Positions 14,192 to 28,959 of a stretch of 56,949 bases of DNA are shown one piece after another. The position numbers and the translations under genes are program-made. The stretch comes from Clostridia bacterium. Its GTDB lineage: Bacteria; Bacillota; Clostridia; Oscillospirales; CAG-272. The stretch's first letter is position 1. Each line of letters begins with the position of its first letter. Location: positions 1 to 56,949 of the forward strand of contig JAFVZL010000023.1 of NCBI GenBank assembly GCA_017508195.1, read 5' to 3'. The notes beneath the pieces are model-generated. The model was not told the origin of the DNA and searched no databases. It worked only from the letters and a program-made list of their open reading frames with translations.

Positions 14192-15031
14192 TCATTCCGT
14201 GATGGTGCTGGTATGCTCTTTAAGAAATGCATCAAGCAGCTTCGTTTTGGTATCGAGCCATCCTGCAAGCACCTCGCGGGCATAGGTGTAGCCCTGAGAA
14301 TAACCCTTAAGCCCGATTATCGGAAGTGTTCCGAGCTTTACGATACCGCTGATTATCTCTCCTGCATCCATGCCGCTTTTCGCGCTTATCATCATAGAAA
14401 CGGTGAAAAGCATACATAACGTTGAGGGCAGAAGCTTCAAGAGAAGCACACAGAGCTTGTGGCGCGTAGGGTCATTAAGCTCACCGCCGGAGCTTCGCAT
14501 CTTCTCTCCGAGAAGCGACTTTGGGCTGATCTCAACGGGCTTCATCTTGTCAATGCGTTTTAGTGCTCGCGCTGTCTTTTTATCCTTGATCCTCCCGGCT
14601 CTGTAATTATCGAGATCATCCTCACCGAATCCCTCGGCAAGGAGAGCGGTGCGCTTTCTGTATTCGAGCTCGCGCTCAGAGTATTCGAGAGTAAAGCGTC
14701 TTAGCTCGCCGATCATATCTCCCGTGATGCTTTCGCTTGCCGCAATGTACTTTTCGCGCGCTTTGACGTACTCCACGCTTTCCTTTCCCAAGCCCTCGCC
14801 TGCATCCTCGAGCGAAAAATATATTATATAGGATGCTATGAGCATAACTATAAGCTCACAGGTCAGCTCCGAGGTTATGAGAGAAGGCAGTGTTATATCG
14901 GTAAAGGTTAGAAGTACGGCAAGCACTGCGGTTACAAGCGCGATTATCTTGCCCATATTCTCGTTTAAGAATGAGTAGCCGCGCCTCATAATATTACCGC
15001 TTTCAAGCAGCGCATCGTCAAGCTTCGTCAT
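14192..15031 (-). CDS. cassette membrane protein, four helices, unknown function
   Basis: This 279-residue protein has two hydrophobic segments near the N-terminus (about 29-46 and 56-74), a long charged, probably helical middle (about 78-185, rich in E, K and R), and two more hydrophobic segments (about 195-215 and 225-240). No family is recognised. It is last in the phage-particle operon, right after two other membrane proteins, with a good AAGGAGGGGG ribosome site. A role in particle release, in host-envelope interaction, or in immunity are all possible; none can be shown from sequence. Confidence 0.7.
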   Translation of the reverse strand: MTKLDDALLESGNIMRRGYSFLNENMGKIIALVTAVLAVLLTFTDITLPSLITSELTCELIVMLIASYIIYFSLEDAGEGLGKESVEYVKAREKYIAASESITGDMIGELRRFTLEYSERELEYRKRTALLAEGFGEDDLDNYRAGRIKDKKTARALKRIDKMKPVEISPKSLLGEKMRSSGGELNDPTRHKLCVLLLKLLPSTLCMLFTVSMMISAKSGMDAGEIISGIVKLGTLPIIGLKGYSQGYTYAREVLAGWLDTKTKLLDAFLKEHTSTITE

Positions 15032-15377
15032 TGTCCCCCTCCTTTGCCCCTCCTATGCGGTAGAGTATAGCACCTATGACGTTCGATACCGTTCCGACAA
15101 AGGATATAACCACCATTTCATCGGCTATGCGCGATAAAGCGAAAAAGATGATGAACGATATGAGCCACATCACCCATGCGCTCGGTGAGGAGAGCATACG
15201 CTTCAGTAGGTTGATAATAGGTATAACTGACAGAACGATGAGGAATGCGGTAAAGCCCGAGAGCACTGCCTCGGTGCCGCGCTCACGCCAGAGAGGGAAG
15301 TAGCATAGCACCGCAATAAGAGGTGACGCTACGGATACTCCTACACCGAGTGCCTTGAATATCACCTTACGCATCAT
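15018..15377 (-). CDS. cassette small membrane protein (holin-like in shape only)
   Basis: The product is 119 residues from the ATG at 15377, or 123 from a GTG at 15389; GGTGG upstream favours the ATG. It has three or four membrane segments (starting FKALGVGVSVASPLIAVLC) and a short acidic tail (GAKEGDNDEA). Small multi-helix proteins at the end of phage late operons are often holins, but no holin family signature is seen and no endolysin gene is next to it. It overlaps both neighbours (14 bases with the 279-residue gene, 11 with the upstream gene), so the three are translationally coupled. Confidence 0.65.
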   Translation of the reverse strand: MMRKVIFKALGVGVSVASPLIAVLCYFPLWRERGTEAVLSGFTAFLIVLSVIPIINLLKRMLSSPSAWVMWLISFIIFFALSRIADEMVVISFVGTVSNVIGAILYRIGGAKEGDNDEA

Positions 15378-16110
15378 TTCGTTCGCCACCGCCTACGAGC
15401 ACCGATCTCATAGATTGCACTCTCTCGCCTACGGCATCCTTCTGATACTGAGGAAGTGCCGAGGTCATGAAGATATCGTATAGCATATCTATCTGTGCAG
15501 TTAGCACCGTCCTCATTTGCTCGCGCCAATTGACATTTGCTTCTTCAGCCTCGAGCGCCGTGCTCATTTTTGCGACAGCAGCATTAAGCTCGGTGATAAC
15601 ATTTTCGGCACTTTCGAGCCTCTCGGTGAGAGCTGAGCTGACCCTTTCGGCATTTTCCTCGGACGCCGCTACGTTTTCTTTAAGCTTGCCGATAGCACCG
15701 AGCACACCCGTGAGAGTTTTCTCTATGAGAGGGGAGAGCCCGAGCTTGTACGCGATAGCAAGAATGATCGAGCCGATAAAGGCAAGGAGCGAAGTGATCT
15801 GTGCCGAATATTTCTCGAAGCCCGCGTAGATATCCTCAAAAATATTTCCGCCTTTATCTATGTTGTCAGTGCCTTCTGTGGGGTTGTCCTCTGCGTCCTC
15901 GCCTTTGCTGTTACCCTCGGTGATATCACCGACACTCTCCGTGTCATTCTCGGAGTCGGTAGCAATATCCTCATACATACCGTTTTCGTTGACTTGGTAT
16001 GTACCCGTGTCGATTTTTTCGTCACTCGCAGCGCTGATACCAAAAGCGGATGCACAAAGCAGCACCGTAATTGCGACTATCACTGTGATGATTTTGTAAT
16101 TAAGCTTCAT
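15367..16110 (-). CDS. cassette exported/membrane protein with coiled coil
   Basis: A 247-residue protein starts with a clear signal peptide (MKLNYKIITVIVAITVLLC, then ASAFGISAASDEK). An acidic, Thr/Asp/Glu-rich stretch follows (about 30-85), then one membrane helix (ITSLLAFIGSIILAIAYKLGL, about 102-122) and a heptad-like segment (about 130-195) before a conserved-looking end LPQYQKDAVGERV. The most likely topology is outside N-domain, one crossing, inside coiled coil. A Sec signal is unusual for a virion protein, which suggests it works in the producing cell's envelope. No family is assigned. Confidence 0.65.
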   Translation of the reverse strand: MKLNYKIITVIVAITVLLCASAFGISAASDEKIDTGTYQVNENGMYEDIATDSENDTESVGDITEGNSKGEDAEDNPTEGTDNIDKGGNIFEDIYAGFEKYSAQITSLLAFIGSIILAIAYKLGLSPLIEKTLTGVLGAIGKLKENVAASEENAERVSSALTERLESAENVITELNAAVAKMSTALEAEEANVNWREQMRTVLTAQIDMLYDIFMTSALPQYQKDAVGERVQSMRSVLVGGGERNDA

Positions 16111-16125
16111 TGATTTTTCCTTTCC

Positions 16126-16524
16126 TTATTTGAATAGGGTATGAGGTGCAGATATTTCCTCAAGCCTTAAAACTCGTTCCTCGAGCTCTGAGAGCTTTGA
16201 CTCGATGGAATCGAGCCTCATTCTTTGCTGGCGTTTCATGTTCGGGTCGTTTTCTGCAAGCGTTATTCTGCCCGCCCACTTCCTTATCCCCTCGAGAGGT
16301 ACAGTCTCACTGTCTCTATGTAAGAGTGGGGTGTAGTCACCGTCGGGAAGCGTCGAAAGAGAGAGCCTTGCGACTCCGCGTTTAAGTCTTGCAGATACGC
16401 CGCCAACAGACACGGCACCGTCATCTGCTCCGTCAATTTGTATTCTGACTGTAACTGCATCGTTTGCGTGGATTTTTTCGCACTGTCCTACGTCTGACTT
16501 GATTTTGTAAAGTATGGTAGTCAT
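16126..16524 (-). CDS. cassette protein, beta-rich N-half with C-terminal coiled coil
   Basis: This 132-residue product has a short beta-strand-rich first half (about 1-75, with alternating V/I and polar residues) and a heptad-type helix near the end (LDSIESKLSELEERVLRLEEI, split here as LDSIESKLSEL and EERVLRLEEI). Such small proteins lie among tail-appendage genes of Firmicutes phages. Its ATG overlaps the stop of the 78-residue gene (ATGA). Function is not assigned. Confidence 0.6.
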   Translation of the reverse strand: MTTILYKIKSDVGQCEKIHANDAVTVRIQIDGADDGAVSVGGVSARLKRGVARLSLSTLPDGDYTPLLHRDSETVPLEGIRKWAGRITLAENDPNMKRQQRMRLDSIESKLSELEERVLRLEEISAPHTLFK

Positions 16525-16757
16525 TTATCGCCTCCCGTGACTTGATAAACGCTTCTTATAGAGTCTCCGTCATCAACGTAACTGATGTCGAGCCTTTGCC
16601 CGAGCTTAAGAGTCGGAGCATCTCCGAGAAGGATGGGCTTATAGCCTGCCTCGCGCATTGATGACTCCTTTGGGTTCGTTATTAAGGTGTTGCCTATCTT
16701 GATATAGCGCTTGCGGTATATCTCAAGGGTACCGTTTTCTTTAATTCTTCCGTACAT
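16521..16757 (-). CDS. small phage tail-region protein
   Basis: The 78-residue product begins MYGRIKENGTLEIYRKRYI and continues with NPKESSMREAGYKPIL. This resembles small proteins found beside tail-fibre genes of many Firmicutes phages (pattern: MYGRI, a short strand, NPTEE, GYKPL). Their function is not known to me. A strong AAGGAG ribosome site precedes the ATG. It is downstream of the 385-residue appendage gene with a two-base gap. Confidence 0.6.
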   Translation of the reverse strand: MYGRIKENGTLEIYRKRYIKIGNTLITNPKESSMREAGYKPILLGDAPTLKLGQRLDISYVDDGDSIRSVYQVTGGDK

Positions 16758-16759
16758 AT

Positions 16760-17917
16760 TTACTCCTTGCTTTTATACTTTACCGTCACTATCGGGTAGG
16801 TTGATGAGCACACCTCGATAATATGTCTTCCCGCTGACAGCTCGTCTCCGCTTATGCTCGGTTCTACCGTTTCAATAATGGGGTTTTTCAGGGTGTAGAT
16901 GACTTTTTTGCCTACGATATCGCTTTTTAGCTGATCTATCGTATATCCCTCTTGCGAGCCGTTGAGTATAAGTCTTGTTCCCGACGGATCCATGACCATA
17001 GTATAGTTATTGTCATAAAAATACTCGGTGCTTTCCTCATATGAAAATGGATCGAGCTTAACTATATATCCGTCTGTCGGGCTTTCAAGATCTATGAAGT
17101 AGCAGGCAAATCCCTCGTAACTTCCGCTTGTGATCACAGTGTCTTCTGTGATGCTCATGCATCCTATTCTTCTTGTGAGCACACCGCTGATGCATTCCAC
17201 CTCGTCAGCGATTTCCCCTTCCGGTATAGCCATAAGCGGCTTGCCGAGCTTTTGCTTTACGGTTATTCCGTTGTATCCTTCATCAAGCACCGCGTTTCCA
17301 ACGTAGAGTCCTACCGACTCGGTAATTATTGGAAGCTCCATGGCATTACCCGTCGGAATATGGTAGATTCCGTTATATTTTGCCGCGGAGGGCTTCGTGC
17401 CCATCAGCTCACACTCTCCGATGTTTCCGGGATCCTTCGCTATTGCCGAGGTTTTTGTTCTGTTGTATTTGAAGTGAAGTCCCGGAATAAGCGCCTCGCC
17501 CTCTGCGATCTGCTCGGTAACGAGTGCCGTCATTTTCATCGTGTGAACACCGGTGCCGAGCATCATGTGATCGGTGCTGATGACTGCGCTTTCTTCCGTC
17601 GCACTTGCGGAATATATAAAGCATCCGTCCTCTCTTTCCCCACCGTATACGGGCGCATCCGTTTCCTCGAGTATCTTTACGAGCTCATCGCCGTCAAGAA
17701 CGCAGTCTCCGTGGATACGAATATTTAATACGTATTCTCCCGAGTCCACATATCCGGCACCCGTGTCACCTGTATTATACGAGTTATCGGTCTGTCCGCT
17801 TATAGTGAATGCGGTTATCTGTGCCCCCGCTTCAATTGCTCCGAGATCGAGAATACCGTTTGCGCTCGCTGTGATCGCGCCGGTGCCGGTATCGGCGTCG
17901 TCGGTGATGAGAAGCAT
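16760..17917 (-). CDS. putative tail appendage protein
   Basis: The 385-residue product is acidic and beta-rich, with repeated short strands separated by Gly/Asp turns, the texture of phage baseplate or receptor-binding proteins. No catalytic motif is visible. The ATG at 17917 is chosen because GAGG lies six bases upstream; a longer frame opens with GTG at 17935 without a properly spaced site. It begins MLLITDDADTGTGAITASA. It is translationally linked to the Mtd-N-like gene: TAAAATG. Confidence 0.5.
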   Translation of the reverse strand: MLLITDDADTGTGAITASANGILDLGAIEAGAQITAFTISGQTDNSYNTGDTGAGYVDSGEYVLNIRIHGDCVLDGDELVKILEETDAPVYGGEREDGCFIYSASATEESAVISTDHMMLGTGVHTMKMTALVTEQIAEGEALIPGLHFKYNRTKTSAIAKDPGNIGECELMGTKPSAAKYNGIYHIPTGNAMELPIITESVGLYVGNAVLDEGYNGITVKQKLGKPLMAIPEGEIADEVECISGVLTRRIGCMSITEDTVITSGSYEGFACYFIDLESPTDGYIVKLDPFSYEESTEYFYDNNYTMVMDPSGTRLILNGSQEGYTIDQLKSDIVGKKVIYTLKNPIIETVEPSISGDELSAGRHIIEVCSSTYPIVTVKYKSKE

Positions 17918-17918
17918 T

Positions 17919-18392
17919 TTATTCCTCATAAACACCTCTGACGTGGCAGTTCATTTTGTCACTCTTCCAGAATATCAGAGTATAGTGCATACATACATCG
18001 GGCACGAATACACCATCCTCGATGCTCGCACCGCTGAATCTTATATTCTCGTAGTTTTCAAAGCTGACGGTCGGCGGATAGTCGTAGGTCTTGAAGCTGA
18101 TCATCGAAAAGTATGGGGATGAGTCAGAATGCTCGAGTGATATGCCCAGGTTCTCAATGTAAGCGAGGCTGATCTCCTCGTTGTTTCTGAGCGAAACGTT
18201 CATATGCTCCTCTTCGGTTTCGGTGAGGATACCACCTACGGGGATGAGATCAAAGAACTCCGTCTCTCCGTCACCGATCACTGCATCGTATCCTGTGCTT
18301 CGCTTGATTAGCGCGATCTCTCCGTCGGGTATAACGGGGTTTGCTTCCTGCCATACGCTCTCGCTTGCGCGCCTGTGTTGTACTTTTGTCAT
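17919..18392 (-). CDS. Mtd-N-like tail fibre protein
   Basis: The 157-residue protein opens with QHRRASESVWQEANPVIPDGEIALIK and then VIGDGETEFFDLIPVGG (about 12-55). This matches the pattern 'W...nPvLpeGEig.e..tg..KiGDG.t.w.dLp' of the N-terminal domain of major tropism determinant and many other phage fibre proteins, which attaches the fibre to the particle. The remaining ~100 residues are beta-rich with many aromatics and could form the distal part. No diversity-generating retroelement (reverse transcriptase or template repeat) is seen nearby. Confidence 0.65.
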   Translation of the reverse strand: MTKVQHRRASESVWQEANPVIPDGEIALIKRSTGYDAVIGDGETEFFDLIPVGGILTETEEEHMNVSLRNNEEISLAYIENLGISLEHSDSSPYFSMISFKTYDYPPTVSFENYENIRFSGASIEDGVFVPDVCMHYTLIFWKSDKMNCHVRGVYEE

Positions 18393-18414
18393 TGTTTTCT
18401 CCTTTTAATGATTT

Positions 18415-19281
18415 TTAGGATAAAAGATCGTCGGGCGATCCGCAATCGATAACTATGAGTGCATCCTCTCCGATGCCCGAGATATCGGTTGATCCTGTGC
18501 CCGCGCTGATACCGTCGATCCTTGCCGACAGCTCGTTATAGCTAGAATCTACGCGATTTTCAAGGCTTTCGACGTCGGATCTGATGCCTTCTATCTCACC
18601 ATCAAGTCTTGTACCGAGTGCGTCGACGGACTCGGTGCACGAGGACTTCGCCTCCTCAAGAAGGCGCTCGAGGGTAGAGAGGCTCTCCCTGTATTCGATA
18701 AGAAGCAGATCGAGCTGTTCGGCATACATCTGTGTCGAGCTTGTGGTGGCGTAGAGCACCTCGATATCCGAGTTGATCGTACCTATGGTCGCACCCTGTG
18801 TAGCTATCGAGCTCTTTACCGTATCTATAACCTCGAGAATCGATGCTATCTCACCCTCCAGCTCGTTTATCCTCTCCTCGGACACTTCGATGCCGTCGGA
18901 ATTTTCTCCAAGCCCCACCCTTACCGAGGCTATTGCCGATTTGATATCAAGAACGGTTTCGGAGAGCGTCTTACCGAGCACGTTAAGATAGTCCGAAAAT
19001 GCCCCGGATCTGATATCCTCGAGCAGGTTTCTTAAGCTATGTCCGTCTCTTATACCGCTCGGGATAGCGCCGTCCACACCCTCACCGTCGGAGCGGCAGA
19101 GGTCATCGAGCAGTGCGTTGAATCTTGAGATGATGAAAAGAGGGAGCTTGTCAAATGCCTCCTTCATCTGCCTCGCCGTATATCCGGCACCTCCGAACGA
19201 GGTGGGAGCGGTGGGACGCGAGGGAAGAGAAGCGACCCTCAGACTCCTGATATCGGCTTCGTTGATTTTTGTTACTGTCAC
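18415..19281 (-). CDS. putative tail appendage protein with long coiled coil
   Basis: The 288-residue product starts with a GTG (AAAGGA upstream). Its first 60 residues (LPSRPTAPTSFGGAGYTARQMKEAFDKLP; here noted in two pieces, LPSRPTAPTSF and GGAGYTARQMKEAFDKLP) resemble N-termini of tail-fibre-region proteins in Firmicutes phages. Residues about 90-260 are nearly all helix-forming with heptads of I/L/V, likely a trimeric coiled-coil shaft. A short Gly/Ser/Asp-rich C-terminus follows. It sits between the nozzle gene and the Mtd-N-like gene. Confidence 0.6.
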   Translation of the reverse strand: MTVTKINEADIRSLRVASLPSRPTAPTSFGGAGYTARQMKEAFDKLPLFIISRFNALLDDLCRSDGEGVDGAIPSGIRDGHSLRNLLEDIRSGAFSDYLNVLGKTLSETVLDIKSAIASVRVGLGENSDGIEVSEERINELEGEIASILEVIDTVKSSIATQGATIGTINSDIEVLYATTSSTQMYAEQLDLLLIEYRESLSTLERLLEEAKSSCTESVDALGTRLDGEIEGIRSDVESLENRVDSSYNELSARIDGISAGTGSTDISGIGEDALIVIDCGSPDDLLS

Positions 19282-19314
19282 TTTTTTTCCTTTCTGCAGG
19301 CTTATCCTGCCTTA

Positions 19315-21975
19315 CTAACTGCGTTTGATCCTGCCCTTTACGGTATAGCGGTAAGCAATGCTCGCCACACCGATAGGTGCCGCATATCCCTCGGTGTAGA
19401 GGGCTATCTGCTTTTCTATCCATCCCTTTTCCTTTTCTGCAATAGGAAGAGTCTGATAATCAGCTACCGAAAGCGCAAGCGATCCGAGATTGACCTCGGA
19501 GAACGACAGGGGTGACATCGGGAAGCTTGTTATCTCCGAATAGTCCGAGCTCTCCGTTCCGACCTCGCAGTGTATCGGAGCATCGGAATAGCTTCTGCAC
19601 TTAAGGACGAGGGAATGCTTTACTGTGGATTTTGCAAGGTGAGGAATATCGCAGTTGTCATATGCGGTCTTTATGGCGTATCTTACGGCGTGACCGTCGT
19701 GCGAATAGTATTCAGGGTGTATTCTTCGCCCCATGATATCTGCGTAAAGAAGAGGATCGAAGTCATCCACCCCTCTGAGATTATCGGGAGCAATACCGCG
19801 CTTATCGTTGTTGAATACCATGAGAGCACCGCTCTCCGTTCCAAAGAACAAAAGATCCTCAACACCGAGTGCACAACACGCAGGTGAAAATACGCCTCCT
19901 CTGCGTTCTCCGGTCTTGTAGAGGCTGTATTTTATACCGTCAACAATGCCGTAGAGCAAAACTCGGCCGTCGTTATCCACCTCGCTTATCGCATCCCCTA
20001 AGAAAATATCACCCTCACTCGGGTGGGCCTTAATATCCCCGTTCTCGAAGCTGTCAAAGCGGTATACCGTAGAATCCCCCTCATAGCTGCCGATGCCCGT
20101 CAGTACAAACCACTCGTATTCTCGTCCTCCGGTGCGGTGCGTGAATGTCATCCTTGAGTCTGCAAGGTATGCGGTGCTTCCCGTAAGGATAACAAGATAT
20201 CCGCACCACTCGGTAAGTATTGCGCGGTTTAAAGCCTCGTTAAGTAAACTATAATTTACATTATGCGACCTACACACGACATTTCTGTCATAATTGATAG
20301 TTCTTTTGTCGAGCGCATACAGACCGAGTTTAGTTATAAATACCGGGTCATCCATAAATGAAAATGCCTCTCCAACAGCGGATATACCCGAGTGTATATA
20401 GCTCTTTGGGTATACCCTGGGCAAATAATCGCTGTCGGTGCTCGTGGGCGTGTGATAGAAGATGCTGCCGGAGCCGTCGTCGCCCTTTTTGAATACTGCA
20501 AGCGAGTCGCCCGCAGCAAGCAGGGCAGATACTCCATAGCCACCTATACCGTCAGAGAAGTAACTCATCGCACCGAAGTATAGTCGGTTAGCACCGCCTT
20601 CGGATATCGGAGTTGAATAGAATACGGTGTTAGGGAGAGTTGGGTTTCCCGACAGAAAAACGCGGTTGTCAAACACTTCCGCAAGAGTGCAACCGAGAAT
20701 AGCCTCCTTGCCAGGGACCGATACGTCGGCATCTCCGAAGCTATATTCCTTTTCTGCGCCCGATATTTCGATAAGATAATTGCACGGCTCCTCGTATATG
20801 GAAGTACTGACGAGGCGCACCGCGCTGAGCCTGCCTTCGTTATCGAAGATTTGCTCAAATTCAATCTCCTTGCCGTTTTCCGTAATGCTTAGCACCTCTC
20901 GGGAATCCTCGGGTACAGCAAGCTCGATGCGGGCACGGATATCCTCGCTGTTAAAGATCAGATTATAGCCGTCGAGAACGCTGTTACCCTCTACGGATTC
21001 GAGCTGCTCTGCCGTGCCGCCGTAGTGAACGTTTTTAAGCTCTTTACATTCGACGAAAGCTGACACGGGTATGGATGTCAGTCCGACTCCGAGATAAACG
21101 TCGGTCATTGATACACAGTCCTCAAAAACCGCGATGCCGATCTCTCTCACCGTGCGGGGAAGCGAGATCACCTTTGCTGACGAACAGAAGTTGAACGCCC
21201 ATTCTCCTACGACCTCTACGCCCTCTGCTACATAAATGGCGGTTGCCTTATCGCAGAGGCTGAACGCGTGAGGGAATATCTCGGTTACTCGGTACTGTCT
21301 GCCGTGAAGTGTAGTATAGCCGGGCACGTATATTTCTCCCTCGTAGTAACGGTCCATGCCCGATACCGCGCAGACTCCTATCGACTCGTCTGTTACGGTA
21401 AATACAAGCCCCTTAGTGCCGACAAAGTACTCTCTCGGGTCTGCTATTATGTATCGCGCCATCAGCTTGTCCGTCAAAAGATTGCGCTGCTCGTGCATTG
21501 CTCCGTTCAGAGTAAGCGACGGTATGTAGGGCATAGCACCCTCCTCACCTACGCGCAGCACGGCACCGTCTCTTGTTATTTCGCTTATGTAGTCACCCGT
21601 GACGAAAAATACGCTGCCCCCCACAGAAAAGTGAGGGCACTTTTTATCCGGCATCTCCTCTATCGGGTCGCTCATCAGATAGCTGTCGCGCTCGGATATT
21701 CTCATGCGGTAGAGTGACGTGCCAGCATGGATAAGAAGATAGTCGCTATCCTCTGCCGTGCTTTGTCTTACGATGGAATGTATCCTCTTTCCGAAGCTTG
21801 CTATCCTCCTGAAGCCCGGTACGCTTTCGATAATTCCTCCGCCGTCACCGTCGTAGTCACGGTAAACGTTTTCTGCGTATGCAAGTCGACTCTTGGATAT
21901 TTCCGAGCCGCTGCCACCCAGCTCAACTCCTCTGAAGTCGCTATAGAGGCGTGTATATCCTGTAGCTTTGCTCAT
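19315..21975 (-). CDS. nozzle/tail-stabilisation-like protein with BspA-type LRR insertion
   Basis: At 886 residues this is the cassette's largest protein. The start (YSDFRGVELGG, then AENVYRDYDGDGGGIIESVPGFRRI) resembles the beginning of podovirus tail nozzle or P22 gp10-like DNA-stabilisation proteins, which seal the packaged genome. Repeated strands with HAGTSLYRM and FVTGDYISEITRDG suggest a beta-propeller. Between about residues 188 and 325 a leucine-rich segment of BspA/LRR_5 type is inserted, for example VEVVGEWAFNFCSSAKVISLP and REIGIAVFEDC. BspA repeats mediate adhesion in gut and oral bacteria. Related nozzles are roughly half this length. Functional assignment is inferred from position and N-terminal pattern. 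Confidence 0.6.
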   Translation of the reverse strand: MSKATGYTRLYSDFRGVELGGSGSEISKSRLAYAENVYRDYDGDGGGIIESVPGFRRIASFGKRIHSIVRQSTAEDSDYLLIHAGTSLYRMRISERDSYLMSDPIEEMPDKKCPHFSVGGSVFFVTGDYISEITRDGAVLRVGEEGAMPYIPSLTLNGAMHEQRNLLTDKLMARYIIADPREYFVGTKGLVFTVTDESIGVCAVSGMDRYYEGEIYVPGYTTLHGRQYRVTEIFPHAFSLCDKATAIYVAEGVEVVGEWAFNFCSSAKVISLPRTVREIGIAVFEDCVSMTDVYLGVGLTSIPVSAFVECKELKNVHYGGTAEQLESVEGNSVLDGYNLIFNSEDIRARIELAVPEDSREVLSITENGKEIEFEQIFDNEGRLSAVRLVSTSIYEEPCNYLIEISGAEKEYSFGDADVSVPGKEAILGCTLAEVFDNRVFLSGNPTLPNTVFYSTPISEGGANRLYFGAMSYFSDGIGGYGVSALLAAGDSLAVFKKGDDGSGSIFYHTPTSTDSDYLPRVYPKSYIHSGISAVGEAFSFMDDPVFITKLGLYALDKRTINYDRNVVCRSHNVNYSLLNEALNRAILTEWCGYLVILTGSTAYLADSRMTFTHRTGGREYEWFVLTGIGSYEGDSTVYRFDSFENGDIKAHPSEGDIFLGDAISEVDNDGRVLLYGIVDGIKYSLYKTGERRGGVFSPACCALGVEDLLFFGTESGALMVFNNDKRGIAPDNLRGVDDFDPLLYADIMGRRIHPEYYSHDGHAVRYAIKTAYDNCDIPHLAKSTVKHSLVLKCRSYSDAPIHCEVGTESSDYSEITSFPMSPLSFSEVNLGSLALSVADYQTLPIAEKEKGWIEKQIALYTEGYAAPIGVASIAYRYTVKGRIKRS

Positions 21976-21986
21976 AATACACCGCC

Positions 21987-22823
21987 TTACGCCCAGCCGT
22001 TGGTGAGATAGGGCGCGCCCGTCTCCTTCGGCATAAATCTCATGAGAGTGCCCATACCGTCCCTGTACAGCGCGCGGTATAGATCCGACTTGTCGGGATC
22101 ATCGTCAAGCCATATGTAGCTTGCTAAAAGAAGGGGTAAAAGCTCGGCACATTCCAGGGGGACATCGATAGGCTCGTCATCCTCGTATCCGCTCGGCATA
22201 ATCGGTGCTCTGCGGTAGGTAAGTACGATAGGACCGTAGTGATTTTCAGGCACGTGCATGACTCCGTCTATAACGTAAGCTCCTGCTATCGGAGTACCTG
22301 AGATGCTTTCCGGTTGCTTGTAAGGTCCGAGATAATCTCCGAGCGCCCTTTTGAGGTCGGTCGTCAGTCTTTCATCCCAGAGCGGAATATCCTCGGGTCT
22401 TTCGCTCGTAAGCTCATCGCAAACCGCAAGATTGTATACCGTATAACCGTAGTCTCCGATAAAGCTTACCGTTACTCCGTCACCGATGAAGCTTCGCACC
22501 TCCGATAGCTCGGAGTCAAAGCTATGCTCGCGTACGATATCTGCTACGGAGTATACATAGCTTCCCTTGCCGGAAACTGTAAAGGACAATGCCCGTCCGA
22601 CGGCGGTATAGCTTTCGGTACCTCCGGGGCGGTGATGTATTTCCTTTGCAATAAGCCTGATGCTTTTATCGGGTCTTGGCAGTCTTACGGTCTTAAGCAC
22701 GGGTCTGTCAAGAAAGAGCGTGTGGAGTGAGCGTCTTAACGCTGGTATCAGATCCGCCGTGTCGTCGAGCTCTCGCTCGAAGCCGAGCGCAAGCACGGAG
22801 CGCTTTAATTCTCCGAATGTCAT
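21987..22823 (-). CDS. putative portal-tail adaptor protein
   Basis: The 278-residue product starts MTFGELKRSVLALGFERELDD and contains ALRRSLHTLFLDRPVLKTVRL (about 28-48), and an acidic C-terminus with LPLLLASYIWLDDDPDKSDLYRAL (reported in pieces: LPLLLASYIWLDDDPDKSD, LYRAL). The helical ends around a beta-rich middle, and the place between capsid and nozzle genes, fit a head-to-tail adaptor. No specific family motif is certain. The ribosome site AAAGGAAA precedes the ATG. A strong hairpin separates it from the capsid gene. Confidence 0.5.
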   Translation of the reverse strand: MTFGELKRSVLALGFERELDDTADLIPALRRSLHTLFLDRPVLKTVRLPRPDKSIRLIAKEIHHRPGGTESYTAVGRALSFTVSGKGSYVYSVADIVREHSFDSELSEVRSFIGDGVTVSFIGDYGYTVYNLAVCDELTSERPEDIPLWDERLTTDLKRALGDYLGPYKQPESISGTPIAGAYVIDGVMHVPENHYGPIVLTYRRAPIMPSGYEDDEPIDVPLECAELLPLLLASYIWLDDDPDKSDLYRALYRDGMGTLMRFMPKETGAPYLTNGWA

Positions 22824-22852
22824 ATAAGTATTTCCTTTCTCTATTTTAGATA

Positions 22853-22878
22853 GGGCTGCCGCAAAGGCGCGGCAGCCC
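22853..22878 (-). other. strong hairpin between capsid and adaptor genes
   Basis: A perfect 10-bp GC-rich stem (22853-22862 with 22869-22878) with a 6-base loop lies 45 bases after the capsid stop. No clear U-run follows on the minus strand, so it may be a partial terminator or mRNA 3'-end stabiliser that raises capsid expression over downstream genes. Confidence 0.6.
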
Positions 22879-22923
22879 GTGGTGCCATTCAGGCTATAAT
22901 CGCACCTTAATGTAAAGTATGGA

Positions 22924-23979
22924 TTACAGCTTGGTGGCTCCGTCGATGGCGGAAGCGGAATCTACCGCCATGAGGATGTGCTTATAAGTGCCGAATCCGA
23001 CTCCGAATCTGCATCTGCCGCACCACATATAATTACCGGTGTGGTTGTCCACCCAGTTGGATACGGTGAGGGGAACACGGTTGAAGAACATGTTACCGCT
23101 GAGGTTCTTGTTTGCCTCGCTCGACATGATCATAACGCGGTCATCGCTCGGCTGCCAGTTAGGCATTACCACGATGTTCCAGTTGCCGAAATGAAGGTTG
23201 ATATCGTTGTAATTACCGCCGAGCGCACCCTCTGAGCCGGCTACCTTCTTTGCTATCTGCTCGGCTACGGGTCTGTTACCGGGGAGAATGATGGTGTCGG
23301 CGGTATAGCCGAGGACCTCACCGTTCTCGTCCTTCATGTTACGGAGCTTAACGGACAGCTCGGAGAGAGCCTCCTCAAAGGCTGCGGTCGAAGCAGTTCT
23401 GTTCGTTCCGCTCTTGAATATATCACCCCAGAAGAGGTTGGACTGAGTGCCGTTTGCACCGTTTGTACCGCCCCACTTGTGGTTCGATGCGAAGAGTGCA
23501 AGGCCGTCGGGTGCGGATAGGTCGAGAGCCGCCTTAGCAAAGGTGCCCGTGGTTGAGGTACCGTTTGCAAGCGCGTACTCACAGATCTTGTGCATGGTCT
23601 TGTAATAGGCTCTCGTGAAGTTCTCGGCTCTGCGCTTTGCATCCTGTGCAACACCGTAGTTCGCATCCTCCATCATCTCGGCTGTGATAGTGAACTCCTT
23701 CATGAACTGGATATGCTCGATGAACTTGCGATAGGTCTCGCTTATAGTATCGGACTCTGCCGCAGCACCCTCGCTTGCGGCGCGGAACACATCAAACTCG
23801 TTCTGACCGATTATGGTCTCACCGAACTTACCGCTCTTTTCTACGTTGAAGAGCCAGTCGCAAATGCCGCCCTTCTTGGTGAGAATATCGCTCTCGTGCT
23901 CGATGACCATCTTAATGGGTGTCTCGAGCTTGCCTATTGCTGCGTTCGAGAAGCCCGAATTTTTAGAATAGATTATCAT
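22924..23979 (-). CDS. major capsid protein (HK97-fold type, Mu gpT-like)
   Basis: The 351-residue protein lies after a scaffold-like gene and before the adaptor. Its middle resembles Mu gpT-like/HK97-fold capsid proteins: ITAEMMEDANYGVAQDAKRRAENFTR (in pieces ITAEMMEDANYG and RRAENFTRAYYKTMHK) as the helical spine, LFASNHKWGGTNGANGTQSNLF as a typical head-protein segment (split), then ADTIILPGNRPVAEQI and VVMPNW. No N-terminal prohead-protease extension is apparent. AAAAGGAG precedes the ATG. The shell would package DNA delivered by the terminase. Confidence 0.82.
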   Translation of the reverse strand: MIIYSKNSGFSNAAIGKLETPIKMVIEHESDILTKKGGICDWLFNVEKSGKFGETIIGQNEFDVFRAASEGAAAESDTISETYRKFIEHIQFMKEFTITAEMMEDANYGVAQDAKRRAENFTRAYYKTMHKICEYALANGTSTTGTFAKAALDLSAPDGLALFASNHKWGGTNGANGTQSNLFWGDIFKSGTNRTASTAAFEEALSELSVKLRNMKDENGEVLGYTADTIILPGNRPVAEQIAKKVAGSEGALGGNYNDINLHFGNWNIVVMPNWQPSDDRVMIMSSEANKNLSGNMFFNRVPLTVSNWVDNHTGNYMWCGRCRFGVGFGTYKHILMAVDSASAIDGATKL

Positions 23980-23996
23980 TTGTTATCTCCTTTTTA

Positions 23997-24473
23997 TTAA
24001 ACGCTTACCTTTTTATAAAGGCTGTGGAGCTCGGCGTCGCCAAGGCCCGGGAACAGATCTCGTGCGCGCTCAAGCTCGGTACGGGACATCGACCCGGTGG
24101 GTCCGCCTGCTCCGCGTGGAACGGCTGAGGAAAGATGACTGCGGTTATCCGTGTGGAGCCTTCTTTCCGTTGTTGCAAGATATGCCTCAGCCGGGGTGAG
24201 TCCGAGGTCGCGGAGTGTCGCATACCTCAACGGATCCTCGAGCTCGGTTATATATCTGATTCCCCTGAGCTCGGAGAATCTGGCACGAAGCTCGTTAAGA
24301 TCCGACTCGACAATAAGAGCGTAATCGGGAGCTTCGGCTGCCGTATCGGATAAGTCCCTTGCATCGTCGGAGGTGTTCTCCGTGCTCGTCTCGGGTACCG
24401 ATTCGGTGAGCTCTGTGCTCTCATCTCTCTCGGGTACAAGCTCGGTCTCTGTATTCAGTACGTTCTCGCTCAT
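23997..24473 (-). CDS. scaffold-like head protein
   Basis: The 158-residue product has a very acidic, low-complexity N-terminus (about 1-50, rich in E, S, T), a helical middle (LRARFSELRGIRYITELED), the motif RDLGLTPAEAYL (about 85-98), and a conserved C-terminus MSRTELERARDLFPGLGD (about 130-147). Proteins with this shape sit just upstream of capsid genes in Firmicutes phages and are taken as scaffolds. No protease motif is visible. Its ATG overlaps the stop of the 48-residue gene. Confidence 0.7.
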   Translation of the reverse strand: MSENVLNTETELVPERDESTELTESVPETSTENTSDDARDLSDTAAEAPDYALIVESDLNELRARFSELRGIRYITELEDPLRYATLRDLGLTPAEAYLATTERRLHTDNRSHLSSAVPRGAGGPTGSMSRTELERARDLFPGLGDAELHSLYKKVSV

Positions 24474-24616
24474 TTCTTACCGCTCCTGAGATCGCCGCCC
24501 GAGGTTATCCTCGATGCCTTAGGCTCCTTTGTACTCTTAACGGGCGCTGTGATCTTCTCAAGACTGTGGGTACGATAGGGTGCACTTACAGTGCTGTTTT
24601 CCTTGTTTTTGTTCAT
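24470..24616 (-). CDS. 48-residue basic phage protein
   Basis: A short frame MNKNKENSTVSAPYRTHSL ... SGGDLRSGKK fills the gap between the 246-residue gene and the scaffold-like gene. It is 48 residues, basic and polar, with no cysteine. GAAAGGATC precedes the ATG, and its TGA overlaps the next gene's ATG, so it is very likely translated. No family is recognised. Confidence 0.65.
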   Translation of the reverse strand: MNKNKENSTVSAPYRTHSLEKITAPVKSTKEPKASRITSGGDLRSGKK

Positions 24617-24631
24617 TTTTTGATCCTTTCT

Positions 24632-25372
24632 TTATTCGATACGGTCGATTCCGCCGTACATAGTATCTCCGAGCTTATCGAGGTAGTCGAGGTACTGGCT
24701 GCCGTACATCGCATATTCGAACTGCAGCCTTTCGGTAGCCTTCTTTATCTCCTTTACGTCCTCCTCGGTAAGGCCGATGGCTCTTGCGTACGATGCCGCC
24801 ATATCGGGTGTGAAGTAGTGGTCGTTTATCTTGCTGAGGATTTCTACCTTGAGCTGATTTCTGACCGCGTTGTAAACGGCACTCACGGCTTCGGTTGCAT
24901 TTTTGTCATCGAGTCCTGCCTCCACCGCGTATTCGTATACGCGTACGGGGTCTATGACACGCTGTTGCGAGAGAGTTGAGGTTACTCTTCTTCTTACGTT
25001 ATCCTGCTTACTTTCAAAGCCCTCGAGATAATCAACGTATTTTCTTCTTTCGTTTGTCTCGTTTGCCTTACGGGTCTTTTCAATATCCAAAAGTCCCATC
25101 CTCGCATTCTCGCGTACCTTTTCCCTGAGGTAGTCCTCGTATCCGCCACCGTCAAGGCCGGATGCTCTCAGCGATGCGGCACTCCTTCCCGTTGACATAC
25201 CGGCTGCCGCGTTTTTCAATAAGAGGGCCTCTGCCGCTCTTCCCGCGGTGCTGTTGTAATGCTCGCCCTCGCCGACAACGTATTCGGTGAAGGTCTTTTT
25301 TCTGTTGCCGAGCTCGAGCTTTTTAACGTAATCGTCAACGAAGCCTTTGAAGCTCGTATCCGTCTTCGCCAT
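24632..25372 (-). CDS. phage head-region protein of unknown function
   Basis: The 246-residue product is strongly helical and charged. The ATG at 25372 is chosen because GAGGAGGTG precedes it by seven bases; the frame upstream is only the overlapping portal sequence. Its start overlaps the portal gene's end by 38 bases. Two features stand out: an Ala/Gly/Ser-rich stretch (about 46-75) and long helices with alternating E/R/K (about 75-115). Position after the portal suggests a minor head or ejected internal protein, but I cannot assign a family. Confidence 0.6.
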   Translation of the reverse strand: MAKTDTSFKGFVDDYVKKLELGNRKKTFTEYVVGEGEHYNSTAGRAAEALLLKNAAAGMSTGRSAASLRASGLDGGGYEDYLREKVRENARMGLLDIEKTRKANETNERRKYVDYLEGFESKQDNVRRRVTSTLSQQRVIDPVRVYEYAVEAGLDDKNATEAVSAVYNAVRNQLKVEILSKINDHYFTPDMAASYARAIGLTEEDVKEIKKATERLQFEYAMYGSQYLDYLDKLGDTMYGGIDRIE

Positions 25373-27140
25373 ATGCGACACCTCCTCTTTTTGCTTGTTC
25401 CACCTCGGCAAGGAAGTACTCAACGTTCTCTCTTGCGTGAGGGTAGTGTGCCCGCTCTTGGCTTTGCCAATAGCGCAGCAGTGTGATCGGGTTCTCAGGA
25501 TTTCCGAGAGTTCCTGCCTTAAGGTTCTCGAGATTTCTTTGCCACAGTGCCTCACGTTGATATTCAGAGCCGCCGTTCAGATCTACCGAGAACAGGTAGT
25601 CGTCATCGTAGAAGTATTCGTTAAGCTTCGGGTCATATTCGAGAAAATCGTATCGGTTGAACTCCTGTGAATGGACTCTGCCGTAGGCATCCTTGTATGA
25701 CAGACGTCTAGGCTCGTCTGCAAATGCGAGATAGAGTGTAAATATGATGCGATCGAGCTCAGCGTACGCTGTGTGCTTCATTTTTCTCTTTGACTCGAGT
25801 CTGCCCGATGCCTGGGATATTCGGAGCTGCCTTGCGACACCCGATTCGTGTGCCGCCTGATCTATGCCCTGATACGCATCGGATATACCGATTACCCTCT
25901 TCGCATGGTCGTACAGTCTTTCCGCCTCGGCAATATCCTGGGATATATCGGGTGTTGTATCGACCTTTCCGTACTGTGCGACACTCTCGCCCGGCTTCAG
26001 CTTTATTACCTGACCGAAGACGGAGTTGTTGGTCGTGACCGTCGCATCCTCGGGGACTATCGGCGTAACCGCTGCACGCAGCAGCTTTTTGAGTATCCTT
26101 GACTCGACCTTGTTGATTGCTTGCTGCTCGGGTCTTATGTAATCGCAATCCGACTGACCGAACAGCGTATTCTCACCCGAGGTGTTCTTCCTTATTACTA
26201 TGGGGAATCTTTTCGGAGTGTAGTAGGGAATAGTGGTTCTTTTGGGGATGACTGCTCCATCGGCTCCCTCGGCAAAGGCGAAGGCGGGGATCGTATCACC
26301 CGATGGGAGAATGATATCTCTCATTATCCGTTCTCTCGTGATCTCTCCTATCCTGCGCTTTGCACCGCAGGCACAGCCGGAATCGCTGCCGCAGATCGGG
26401 CAGATCTCACCCTTTCTCATATAGTATCTCGGCAGATCCGATAGAGTTACCTCTCCGGAATATATGAATCTTCCTACCTCACCGTCCGGGTCGCGGTAAA
26501 AGCAGATGATGACGGCGACGGTGTCACCCTCCTCGCTTCCCGTGCGGTACTCGTACTCACAGTCGAGCTTGTCAATATCCTCATCCTTTACACCGTATTT
26601 TCTCATGACCTCACCGCGCGTTGTGGTGAAGCGGAGAAAGCAGTATTCCATATCGGTGATATTGTATATACCCGGCTGAGGAATAAAATCGCGCGGAGAG
26701 ATGCAGTGTACTCTTACCGTTCCAACCTCTCCGAGATGCTCCTCTGAGTTGTCCCACTCGGCATACCAGATGCTGCCGCCGTAGATGTATGTGTATCTCT
26801 CGTCGATATCATTCATCTGCTCAAAGGGGAGCTTATCTCTTAAGGATCTGAGAAGCCTTTCAACATTCTCCGCGTTGCGGCTTCTCGTCTCGCTGTACGA
26901 GGATGCGTCTGTCTTCGGCATCGGTATATCCGAGGATATCTGGCTTTCGATAAGCTCATAGGTGATATTTCTCACTGTGGCAGCCGCTTCGTCCGAGCCG
27001 TCGATCTCAGTTGAGCCCTTATACTGGTTCATGCGTCTGTCGAGAGCCTCTCTGATTTCTGCCGAGCTCATCCTTGCCGATTCATAGAGAGCACTGAAGA
27101 ACTCGAGTCGTCCCTCTTTTGTTGTATTAGTGATGTTCAA
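25335..27140 (-). CDS. portal protein
   Basis: The 601-residue product follows terL directly and has a typical portal layout: mixed N-terminal half, then helical stem. A zinc-ribbon-like insert, CPICGSDSGCACGAKR (about 255-270), lies mid-protein. The segment IDQAAHESGVARQLRISQASGRLESK (in pieces IDQAAHESGVARQLRIS and QASGRLESK) is the long helix seen in P22-like portals. The start is a TTG at 27140 overlapping terL's TGA (TTGA), with GGAG eight bases upstream; longer versions would lie inside terL. Portals form the dodecamer through which DNA is packaged. Confidence 0.82.
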   Translation of the reverse strand: MNITNTTKEGRLEFFSALYESARMSSAEIREALDRRMNQYKGSTEIDGSDEAAATVRNITYELIESQISSDIPMPKTDASSYSETRSRNAENVERLLRSLRDKLPFEQMNDIDERYTYIYGGSIWYAEWDNSEEHLGEVGTVRVHCISPRDFIPQPGIYNITDMEYCFLRFTTTRGEVMRKYGVKDEDIDKLDCEYEYRTGSEEGDTVAVIICFYRDPDGEVGRFIYSGEVTLSDLPRYYMRKGEICPICGSDSGCACGAKRRIGEITRERIMRDIILPSGDTIPAFAFAEGADGAVIPKRTTIPYYTPKRFPIVIRKNTSGENTLFGQSDCDYIRPEQQAINKVESRILKKLLRAAVTPIVPEDATVTTNNSVFGQVIKLKPGESVAQYGKVDTTPDISQDIAEAERLYDHAKRVIGISDAYQGIDQAAHESGVARQLRISQASGRLESKRKMKHTAYAELDRIIFTLYLAFADEPRRLSYKDAYGRVHSQEFNRYDFLEYDPKLNEYFYDDDYLFSVDLNGGSEYQREALWQRNLENLKAGTLGNPENPITLLRYWQSQERAHYPHARENVEYFLAEVEQAKRGGVAYGEDGYELQRLR

Positions 27141-28501
27141 ATTGGTTCTCCGTATTTTTGCTTCAGATATTTCTTTCCCTCGTCGTCTGCCGTGCGGTAG
27201 TCCTCCCACATATCCCTCGTCCAGACGGTGCGCCGCATTTTATCGGCTGCCTCGGCGGGTCGCGTATGAAAGATGGCAAATCCGCGCAGTGCATCGGGGG
27301 CGTGCGTGATCTCGTGGGGCTCTGTCGCACAGTCTGTGGGGCGTATCTTATCGACCGTAAGGGCGGGCAGACATTTGATCAGCTCAGAGCAGTTTTCAAA
27401 TATTCTGAGCCTCGGCTCGCCATCCGTATGGCAGAGCAACTCCTTCACCGCGAGCCATCCGCATTCGCGGTCGTTCGAGCTTTTAGTGAAGGTGACTCCG
27501 TACTCTTGAAAGAGGCTCGCCTTGGTCTTTCCCGTCTCCTGCGTTCTCGACCAGAGGTCGGGCGGCGCCAGAGTGGCGTAAATATCCTCGCCCTTCGGAG
27601 TTCTATCGGTTATCGCCCTCGCTGCCTGACTGATCGGGAGTCCCGACTCGCAATATTCTCTGTAAACGTAGACCGCCCCGTCGGGGGCGATAGCTATCCA
27701 CAAGACGGCAAGGCGGTCAAGACCGTAGTCGAGGGTTCGGTATTTTCTCCACGAGGCCGGTATCTCGAAGGGCTTGACCACGTGAGAAGCGCGGTCAAAC
27801 TCTGTGAAATACTGTCCCTCGAAGATATCCCAATCTCCGTACAGAAGTGCGCGCTTCTCGCGCTCGGGCAGAGCAAGCAGCCTTTTTCTGTATTCGGGGT
27901 CGCCCTCACTTAAAAAGCTGTTTTCATCGAGCAGAGAGGGAATGAATATACGGCTCATTCCGTCAGAGCCGACAAAGGGCGTATCCTTCGGTGCGGGGTC
28001 GACAAACCTTGCCTTGACCCAGGAGTGCCCCACGCCTCCCGGGTTGGTGGATGATTTTATCTGCTTAGGATAGCCGTTCGCACCTCTGACTCTTGATAGC
28101 ATGTAGACGTACTGTGCCTCGGTAAAATGCGTCAGCTCGTCAAAGCGGATGCAGTCGTATTCTGCCGATTGATACTGATAGACGTCATTCTCTGTGGCAC
28201 AGTAGCCGAAATCTATGCATGAGCCGTTTTTGAATCTGCCCGTGTGGGTTGAGGAGTTGAAGGTGAATACCGATCTCGGATAAAGCGCGAGAGCGGTACG
28301 GATGAGAGATTTATCAAGCTCGGCAAAGCTTCGTCTCATTATCAGCTGCTTGGAGCCCGGGTAAATGAGGGCGAAAAGGAGTGCATCGACTACCTGACCG
28401 TAGGACTTTCCTCCGCCTGCCGCGCCGCCGAACAGGACCTCTGATTCGACTGCGTCAATAAATCTCTTTTGCTTTTTAGTCACCGACAGTGAAAGCTTCA
28501 T
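27137..28501 (-). CDS. terminase large subunit
   Basis: The 454-residue protein is a phage DNA-packaging ATPase-nuclease. Walker A is FGGAAGGGKS (about 24-33), Walker B is CIRFDELTHF (about 116-125), followed by the coupling motif SSTNPGGVGHSW (about 150-161). The C-terminal nuclease has acidic residues in TLDYGLD and the final HAPDALRGFAIF. All catalytic positions look intact, so the motor is probably functional. It overlaps the terS stop by four bases and the portal start. Retained integrity argues against simple decay of the cassette. Confidence 0.93.
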   Translation of the reverse strand: MKLSLSVTKKQKRFIDAVESEVLFGGAAGGGKSYGQVVDALLFALIYPGSKQLIMRRSFAELDKSLIRTALALYPRSVFTFNSSTHTGRFKNGSCIDFGYCATENDVYQYQSAEYDCIRFDELTHFTEAQYVYMLSRVRGANGYPKQIKSSTNPGGVGHSWVKARFVDPAPKDTPFVGSDGMSRIFIPSLLDENSFLSEGDPEYRKRLLALPEREKRALLYGDWDIFEGQYFTEFDRASHVVKPFEIPASWRKYRTLDYGLDRLAVLWIAIAPDGAVYVYREYCESGLPISQAARAITDRTPKGEDIYATLAPPDLWSRTQETGKTKASLFQEYGVTFTKSSNDRECGWLAVKELLCHTDGEPRLRIFENCSELIKCLPALTVDKIRPTDCATEPHEITHAPDALRGFAIFHTRPAEAADKMRRTVWTRDMWEDYRTADDEGKKYLKQKYGEPI

Positions 28502-28839
28502 CTGTCGATCACCTCTAGCGTGATATCAATTTTCTTTTCGTCATCGCCGATATCCTCTCCCATCCTGTATTCGCTTGTGAGAAGAAATTTCGTGAATGAC
28601 GGATCAAACCGCTTTGTCAACGCGTTGTCAATAAGATAATCTCTTCGGATTTCGTTACATTCGCGATAGGCTCTGTCAAACTCGGAATATCTTCTGAAGG
28701 CCTCGACCTCGGCGAGTGTCACACCTATGCTCCTGGCAAATTTCCCGAAGCTCGGCGCACCGTGGTCAGTATAGGATAGGAAAAAGGTATACAGGCGGTG
28801 CGGCATATCATTCGTGTATCTTACTCGCTTTTTTCTCAT
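28498..28839 (-). CDS. terminase small subunit
   Basis: The 113-residue, first gene of the cassette. It has an HTH-like start (FARSIGVTLAEVEAFRRY, about 35-52), then EFDRAYRECNEIRRDYLI (oligomerisation helices) and FTKFLLTSEYRMG followed by a short strand ITLEVIDR, the pattern of small terminases. It recognises the DNA to be packaged and hands it to TerL. AAGGGGACG precedes the ATG. Confidence 0.8.
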   Translation of the reverse strand: MRKKRVRYTNDMPHRLYTFFLSYTDHGAPSFGKFARSIGVTLAEVEAFRRYSEFDRAYRECNEIRRDYLIDNALTKRFDPSFTKFLLTSEYRMGEDIGDDEKKIDITLEVIDR

Positions 28840-28844
28840 CTTCG

Positions 28845-28959
28845 TCCCCTTTTCCCGTCGGATAGGGTGATCTGCCCGTCGGCATCCTCACCGGGTGTGC
28901 TCCGCGGTCGTCACACCCTCCGACAAGCCCATTATAGCAGTGCGGCACTCCCCTGTAAG
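28845..28959 (-). promoter_or_regulatory. promoter and structured leader of the phage-particle cassette
   Basis: Minus-strand TGC-TATAAT (extended -10; core at 28931-28936) with -35 CTTACA (28954-28959) and a 17-base spacer. The leader of about 85 bases can form a hairpin with a GGGTGTG/CACACCC stem (about 28890-28917). Two direct copies of CCGACGGG (28854-28861 and 28875-28882, minus strand) are 21 bases apart, two helical turns, just before the ribosome site. They could bind a regulator. No repressor gene lies next to it. Confidence 0.55.

Follow-up and report, generated by a model that had tools for sequence, protein, structure and literature searches.

The subject of this report is an operon of 17 genes on the minus strand (positions 14192 to 28839) of a 56,949-nucleotide stretch of DNA from a bacterium of the Clostridia; the whole stretch, contig JAFVZL010000023.1 of assembly GCA_017508195.1, is called the window. 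The operon probably encodes the particles of a gene transfer agent (GTA) derived from a podovirus, a viriform-like system, in a Clostridia genus; from the genes and their distribution we rate this reading at roughly three chances in four. The host genus consists of ruminant-gut bacteria, and the operon is stably inherited in their chromosome. Comparison of genomes shows that it is fixed there, has diversified with its host and is under purifying selection, and comparison with viral contigs shows it to be the late module of a temperate podovirus minus the integrase, the replication genes and a giant polyvalent protein. In the inner clade of hosts, motif searches show its promoter to be common to the operon and to solitary replication-initiator/loader and barnase/barstar genes. 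To our knowledge, GTA gene clusters outside the Alphaproteobacteria and Spirochaetia are few, and the operon would be a sequence-defined, genus-wide GTA candidate in the Clostridia with phage relatives at hand. As these relatives are traceable, the course of its domestication can be followed one gene at a time, and as the promoter motif names a regulon, it offers a route to the inducer and the missing parts.

The source genome (G000) is an assembly of 2.02 Mb in 54 contigs, 87.9% complete, of which the window is contig C10. The operon forms one tightly packed unit of 16 open reading frames (ORFs) of 78 to 886 amino acids (aa) and one of 48 aa. Its initial annotation as a complete-looking short-tailed particle operon was borne out by these ORFs and by profile matches for TerS, TerL, portal and capsid; in the order of transcription, its genes are as follows.

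28498..28839, minus strand: TerS, small terminase, 113 aa (phrog_3064, E 2e-8; homologues at 45 of 59 loci)
27137..28501, minus strand: TerL, large terminase, 454 aa (PF04466, E 7e-10; phrog_979, E 3e-46)
25335..27209, start possibly 27173, minus strand: portal protein (P22_portal, E 4e-8; SU10_portal, E 2e-8; phrog_156, E 3e-34)
24632..25372, minus strand: g4, role not assigned, 246 aa (homologues at 38 of 59 loci; present in the related phage L128)
24470..24616, minus strand: 48-aa ORF in the interval between g4 and the scaffold gene (ORFs alike in size and place at other loci)
23997..24473, minus strand: scaffold-like protein, 158 aa, gene preceding that of the capsid (homologues at 56 of 59 loci)
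22924..23979, minus strand: major capsid protein, 351 aa (phrog_371, E 2e-6 as a whole-protein score, no single stretch falling below 0.01)
21987..22823, minus strand: g8, adaptor-like by gene order (homologues at 58 of 59 loci)
19315..21975, minus strand: g9, nozzle-like, with a BspA-type leucine-rich repeat (LRR) stretch (LRR_5, E 1e-14, residues 231-322)
18415..19281, minus strand: g10, coiled-coil-like appendage protein (weak coiled-coil matches; homologues at 52 of 59 loci)
17919..18392, minus strand: g11, tail-fibre-like (phrog_6049, E 1e-4, N-terminus)
16760..17935, minus strand: g12, variable appendage protein (homologues at 9 of 59 loci)
16521..16757, minus strand: g13, small variable protein (homologues at 12 of 59 loci)
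16126..16524, minus strand: g14, 132 aa (homologues at 47 of 59 loci)
15367..16110, minus strand: g15, membrane protein with an N-terminal hydrophobic segment (hydropathy)
15018..15389, minus strand: g16, holin-like membrane protein (hydropathy)
14192..15031, minus strand: g17, membrane protein, last gene (hydropathy)

From gene order we infer the identities of the scaffold, adaptor and nozzle. The nozzle proteins of podoviruses are propellers, and positions 680-736 of the g9 family profile also pick up designed beta-propellers (E about 1e-8), which is compatible with such a role. The BspA-type LRR block of g9 is perhaps a receptor-binding insert. Two uncharacterised PHROGs also match at the LRR stretch, in 24 and 23 of 26 relatives. 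Pfam returned no family over its cut-off for g12 to g17, and searches against solved structures gave no match at E 0.1 for capsid and portal.

The phage origin of the operon can be followed in viral contigs that reach 42 to 45 kb and have capsids 49 to 52% identical to its own. One of these, IMGVR_UViG_3300029705_000297 (L128 and L376; 41.8 kb), belongs to a temperate podovirus with a TerL 69% and a capsid 52% identical to those of the operon. A serine integrase gene lies just upstream of its terS, and it encodes a DnaC-like loader, a reverse transcriptase and, between g4 and scaf, a giant protein of more than 2600 aa with LPD38 and LPD3 domains. Its late genes (terS-terL-portal-g4-(giant)-scaf-mcp-g8-g9-(1160 aa)-g14-g15-g16-g17) stand in the same order as those of the genus operon, which is without the integrase, replication genes and giant protein. 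As annotated, Pfam and PHROG profile scans of the operon proteins recognised neither an integrase nor a repressor nor any gene for replication, so that the integration/excision, control and replication genes that a functional prophage holds within the element are missing from this one. Two tyrosine-integrase matches were found in the source genome, both off-contig (C33 and C7).

Occurrence in the host genus is near genus-wide. The capsid protein was matched in 57 of 69 genomes and in 19 of the 22 good ones (completeness at least 90%, contamination at most 5%); the portal is present in G236, one of the 12 capsid-less genomes, which brings the genomes with some operon part to 58 of 69. Layout was compared at 54 loci, that is, 58 fetched capsid regions minus five second-copy loci (L275-L279) plus the window; the second-copy loci were excluded from the trees as well. 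All ten core genes (terS, terL, portal, scaf, mcp, g8, g9, g15, g16 and g17) were found at 42 of these, 41 of the 42 in canonical order, spanning 9.3 to 16.2 kb (median 12.7 kb). The 12 incomplete loci miss one to seven core genes, and several end at a contig edge; in G211, G196 and G259 the downstream sequence is present and g16 and g17 were not detectable. A permuted operon, with terS-terL-portal placed behind g17, occurs in G172 (L241).

In the window the operon stands between two host genes, an ABC-F ATPase gene upstream and a helicase gene downstream. The proposed search for it at this locus in relatives showed a location that is shared within host subclades but not by the outer clade. 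In 18 genomes the ABC-F gene is, by coordinates, on the operon contig and no more than about 5 kb from where the operon starts (in G247 on the opposite strand), and the helicase gene lies downstream at 21 of 59 loci. Flank groups follow the host subclades, linking 20 genomes on the helicase side and 15 on the ABC-F side, and smaller subclades have separate flank groups of their own; in the outer clade the operon is at other chromosomal sites. The patchy occurrence at differing insertion sites that the initial annotation had named as evidence against domestication was thus seen in part, in the differing sites of the outer clade, but not in the occurrence itself.

Inheritance was assessed against rpoB, which was matched in 53 of the 69 genomes (49 sequences used). 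A tree of eight concatenated operon genes, capsid excluded, was built for the 44 genomes with at least six of the eight, 33 of them also with rpoB. It had 18 of 30 splits in common with the rpoB tree, compared with a mean of 0.3 and a maximum of 4 in 300 label shuffles, and both trees supported 16 of the common splits at 0.9 or above. Rank correlation with rpoB distance was highest for TerS and g17 (both 0.77), followed by TerL (0.72) and portal (0.63), and lay between 0.47 and 0.66 for scaf, g8, g9, g10, g15 and g16; each correlation from 0.47 to 0.77 was matched by 0 of 199 permutations. The value for g4 was 0.30, and the flanking genes gave 0.52 (ABC-F, 12 genomes) and 0.57 (helicase, 15 genomes). 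The comparison of TerL and capsid with host phylogeny that had been proposed thus favoured co-diversification for TerL in its distances and for the capsid in its tree, in which 10 of 38 splits are common with rpoB (shuffles 0.2), but not in its distances.

These trees bear on the possibility of an active phage lineage integrating repeatedly at one site, the shared flanks then reflecting site preference. The outer-clade loci at other sites would fit such a lineage, but the operon tree tracks the host tree, and the relatives that resemble real phages have contigs of up to 42 to 45 kb, the one that was read having an integrase and giant protein that the genus loci are without. Seven genomes lack capsid and portal and have both flanks; ABC-F and helicase lie there on different contigs and no empty junction was seen, a check weakened by contig breaks. 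Hot-spot insertion was rejected on two grounds, the agreement of the operon tree with rpoB and the failure to observe an empty site, and we consider repeated integration very improbable.

A satellite, a mobile passenger drawing replication and excision from resident prophages, is equally improbable in our estimate. In its favour are second, diverged capsid loci in five genomes, that of G229 lying 23 kb from a tyrosine integrase; against it stand the vertical inheritance and the stable flanks inside host subclades. One phmmer query with the serine recombinase of the related phage retrieved nothing related from the 58 fetched loci, and among the matches listed a single operon contig carries a tyrosine integrase, in G228 (L268, C14:195065), about 6 kb past g17; the listed matches were compared by eye and many contigs are short. 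The integrase nearby that the initial annotation had said would count against domestication was therefore not encountered beyond this one case; att repeats were not searched for. Capsid-forming satellites are mobile elements with an integrase that take tails from a helper, whereas the operon has tail-type genes of its own.

Selection on the operon argues against decay. The test covered 13 operon genes, a set without g11 to g13, over 13 close pairs of genomes, and all scorable comparisons gave dN/dS below 0.6 (0.03-0.58); several saturated comparisons gave no value. Ranges were 0.03-0.16 for capsid, 0.05-0.20 for TerL and 0.06-0.19 for portal, with g14 highest (0.19-0.58), and the flanking ABC-F and helicase genes gave 0.03-0.10 and 0.08-0.10, respectively. 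No internal stop codon was found in 64 capsid matches, a few of which are fragments, and gene order is near-constant among genomes whose rpoB distances average 0.22. Neutral decay is disfavoured by dN/dS values below 0.6 throughout, and together with the stop-free capsid matches they led us to reject decay, in agreement with the initial annotation, which had looked to frameshifts and relaxed selection in relatives as signs to the contrary. An old prophage remnant, kept by chance or slowly decaying, would account for the missing prophage-required genes and for the one host clade that seems to have lost the operon, but given the low dN/dS, the intact capsids and the near-constant gene order it is the least probable of the alternatives, with hardly any weight.

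The packaging enzyme is conserved as well. In the window, the Walker A/B residues and three putative nuclease aspartates of TerL are intact, confirming what had been annotated, and across the genus the Walker and putative nuclease residues are kept in 45 to 46 of 46 TerLs, the sole exception being a gap. At the 3' end of the operon, g15, g16 and g17 form a conserved membrane cassette: of 50 g15 homologues, 43 have two hydrophobic segments and 7 have one, g16, which is of holin-like size, has four in 38 of 47 homologues and three in 9, and g17 has two to four (46 homologues). The initial annotation's statement that lysis genes are absent is not secure in view of this cassette.

A domesticated particle that is not a GTA must also be weighed, one in which heads and tails, maybe with host DNA inside, serve to kill or signal to competitors in the manner of PBSX. 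The variability of the appendage genes g12 and g13 and the co-occurrence of an RNase and an immunity protein favour it, and the article on FpGTA (the GTA-like element of Faecalibacterium), in the part available, leaves the same question open for that element (PMC12946183). Against it, the TerL residues are kept, terminase, portal and capsid are under strong purifying selection, something that a pure killing device could do without, and a promoter common with replication-type genes points to DNA; we regard it as unlikely, though the foremost of the alternatives to a GTA.

That promoter, TTTGG-N10-TACTTAC-N18-TATAAT, occurs as an exact match at 28931..28976 (minus strand), upstream of terS, and is the sole match in the window at up to three mismatches (0.02 expected in shuffles). 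Before terS, ACTTAC with a -10-like hexamer was found at 28 of 45 loci, spaced by 18 (26 loci) or 19 bases (2 loci), and 24 of these 28 have TTTG, 21 of them TTTGG, ten bases before TACTTAC. At up to two mismatches there were 76 sites in 34 of the 69 genomes, compared with 5 for the reversed control; 51 sites had at most one mismatch, 24 of them operon sites and 27 elsewhere.

All 27 close non-operon sites were inspected, together with six of 25 two-mismatch sites, the count being made from the motif side. Twenty-four of the 27 precede phage-type replication-initiator/loader or barnase/barstar genes: 11 winged-helix RepO/DnaD-type initiator-like genes, 8 DnaD-like helicase loaders, 2 barnase-like RNases and 3 barstars, two of the last lying 138 and 234 bases from the motif. 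The other three (L486, L504 and L477, the L477 site being identical to that of L478) are unassigned. Four of the six two-mismatch sites stand before initiator-type genes and two (L498, L505) do not, L498 being grouped with the initiator family only via shared upstream sequence. Family searches with ten of the proteins gave PHROG initiator/loader matches down to 4e-43, Ribonuclease at 8e-10 and Barstar at 1e-16. The source genome itself has a solitary 126-aa winged-helix initiator-like gene directly behind an exact motif (C45, L473:1138-1518), and a metagenome contig (L113:1284-2520) holds two copies, one before terS and one, with two mismatches, before a RepO-like gene that sits directly before the operon. 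The motif was not found in the two pieces of the L128/L376 phage contig; at two mismatches it occurred in none of 25 related-phage, prophage, second-copy and g7 loci, and at three mismatches once. Barnase-like RNase and barstar pairs stand behind the motif at L474:1062-1947 and L495:1080-1952. Of two RNases examined, one matches a phage Mu F-like head domain weakly at its N-terminus (E 3e-4), which makes a particle-borne role for it conceivable.

The particle operon is perhaps co-induced with these scattered phage-type replication genes. In a fraction of the cells, a putative regulator would activate the shared promoters at the same time. Chromosomal DNA would then be amplified by the replication proteins, and TerS and TerL would package host DNA into small heads, one headful at a time; the g15-g17 membrane proteins, perhaps with the RNase, would let the particles out, and the DNA would reach kin through the short tail and its LRR-bearing nozzle. 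We hold as tentative, and on balance rather doubtful, the fuller version of a GTA with a dispersed replication regulon, in which orphan initiators on the operon's promoter would over-replicate many sites, the particles would sample the whole genome and the RNase would end the producer. The orphan initiator genes were scanned for origin-like iterons; in 4 of 24 regions a 9-mer occurred three times (shuffle maximum two), and these repeats were judged unconvincing. With 20 of the 24 regions not above shuffles, the idea of run-off replication receives no real support from repeats.

In its available text, PMC9662315 defines GTAs by six features: a caudoviricete-derived particle, mostly random host DNA as cargo, endogenisation (often at several loci), an own genome that is not fully packageable, vertical co-diversification with the host, and DNA delivery to other cells. 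Three of the six can be recognised here. The particle proteins are caudoviricete-derived; endogenisation appears full, with stable subclade flanks, no recombinase relative and dispersed same-promoter genes as candidate partners; and inheritance is vertical, with co-diversification. The genus-wide presence, congruent trees, subclade locations, selection and integrase-bearing phage outgroup together strongly support the domesticated, podovirus-derived particle that the initial annotation had proposed.

Several observations weigh against a GTA, or against parts of the account given above. The system is known here from genes alone, as regards particle, packaged DNA and transfer. Operon TerS proteins (95-144 aa, 45 loci) are to be compared with five distinct candidates from related phages (126-187 aa, measured from the first possible ATG and some perhaps over-long; one further candidate, from the distant phage L131, was omitted); in an alignment read by eye, an N-terminal stretch is missing relative to those phages and the helix-turn-helix (HTH)-like stretch after it seems kept, unlike in the TerS of RcGTA (the GTA of Rhodobacter capsulatus) and FpGTA. 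No endolysin domain was found among the window's operon proteins in the profile scans. Two well-supported operon splits conflict with rpoB, and the capsid shows a rank correlation with rpoB distance of -0.07; capsid exchange between hosts is not favoured as the main cause of this flat correlation because of the splits that the capsid tree has in common with rpoB, and uneven capsid rates are likelier. The near-complete genomes G219, G235 and G253 have neither capsid nor portal; their clustering in one clade of the rpoB tree suggests a single loss. The outer clade has the operon without the promoter: the 17 motif-less loci are 16 of the outer clade and G216, in which a looser form of the motif lies upstream of terS. 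At up to two mismatches the motif occurs in only 6 of the 22 good genomes. Lastly, G204 has no capsid or portal match and yet has a motif-initiator gene (L496), so the operon and the motif genes are not strictly tied.

Clusters of this general kind have precedents, with which the operon was compared by published description. The initial annotation had taken a podovirus-derived domesticated particle to be something new, which no longer holds: FpGTA was described in January 2026 as a podovirus-like GTA-like element of Faecalibacterium (PMC12946183). According to the available text of that article, FpGTA I is 10.5 kb long with ten ORFs and a TerS without an obvious DNA-binding domain, and a second operon holds fibre, holin and endolysin genes (PMC12946183). 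Both systems have further parts elsewhere. They differ in that here a single operon of 14.6 kb includes the tail and membrane genes, an HTH-like region appears to be retained in TerS, and an RNase and replication initiators make up the dispersed partners. In Fournierella's family, the portal profile, used to look for FpGTA, matched 19 of 247 genomes, with two gene orders among the 11 opened and none attributable to Faecalibacterium. A separate genus, a layout different from that of FpGTA and a traceable phage relative thus appear to set the present operon apart. A literature search, not aimed at the motif itself, found no report of the operon and no description of the regulon; the promoter shared by operon and solitary genes looks new.

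The cluster of RcGTA (Rhodogtaviriformidae) is similar in size to this operon, siphovirus-like and of a different phage origin. In both, a host-inherited particle cluster is accompanied by scattered genes; for RcGTA, the available text of PMC9662315 gives scattered extra genes and co-diversification with hosts. The GTA of Bartonella, BaGTA (Bartogtaviriformidae), would by analogy be a precedent for coupling to phage-derived replication genes; its single run-off origin cassette and the BaGTA locus share one 80-kb segment, as described in the part of PMC6899734 available, whereas several initiator-like genes here lie at separate places with the operon's promoter and their origin activity is only putative. 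PBSX of Bacillus subtilis is likewise a domesticated phage-like particle of a Gram-positive host and differs in tail type and origin. Its packaged DNA is not injected and it acts as a tailocin, and GTA-like packaging is noted in several Clostridia without a named gene cluster (both from the available text of PMC12946183).

Around the operon, the window holds the following further features.

29301..31295, minus strand: host ABC-F ATPase gene (phrog_293)
29026..29081, minus strand: two terminator-like hairpins in the interval between ABC-F and the operon promoter (consensus scan only)
14133..14157, minus strand: terminator-like hairpin 3' of g17, 10 pairs, 7 of them GC (consensus scan only)
11562..13970, minus strand: host helicase gene (phrog_2488 DNA helicase), which we take to be DinG-like

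As to the host-like promoter and terminator that had been annotated, the promoter is a special conserved one. Composition is host-like, as annotated (GC 0.510 in the operon, 0.491 in the remaining window).

Beyond the genus, the capsid profile was matched in 23 of 246 genomes of the wider family, made up of 6 from the window's genus, 5 from genus g7 and 12 from scattered genera. Among the scattered loci opened, a giant ORF precedes the scaffold gene in G285, G005 and G081, as in the related phages, and a compact layout was seen in G281 and in the genus g7 loci. The latter (L423-L427) read terS-terL-portal-scaf-mcp-g8-g9, with no giant protein and a quite different TerL, and are possibly a second domestication. 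In a genome placed in another genus, contig C32 of G192 (L006, L334) carries a TerL of 66% identity and a closely matching capsid gene about 25 kb apart, for which transfer, permutation or mis-binning are suggested. A 1747-aa protein without a Pfam match at 0.01 is encoded directly after g17 in G239 (L269:14638-19881). One viral-database contig, L114, bears the ABC-F gene beside the operon and is thus a piece of host chromosome catalogued as a virus. In the related phage, the reverse transcriptase stands beside two phrog_9958-type genes, of which one matches DUF6273 (L128:2558-3733 and L128:4188-5335), and this region is reminiscent of a diversity-generating retroelement.

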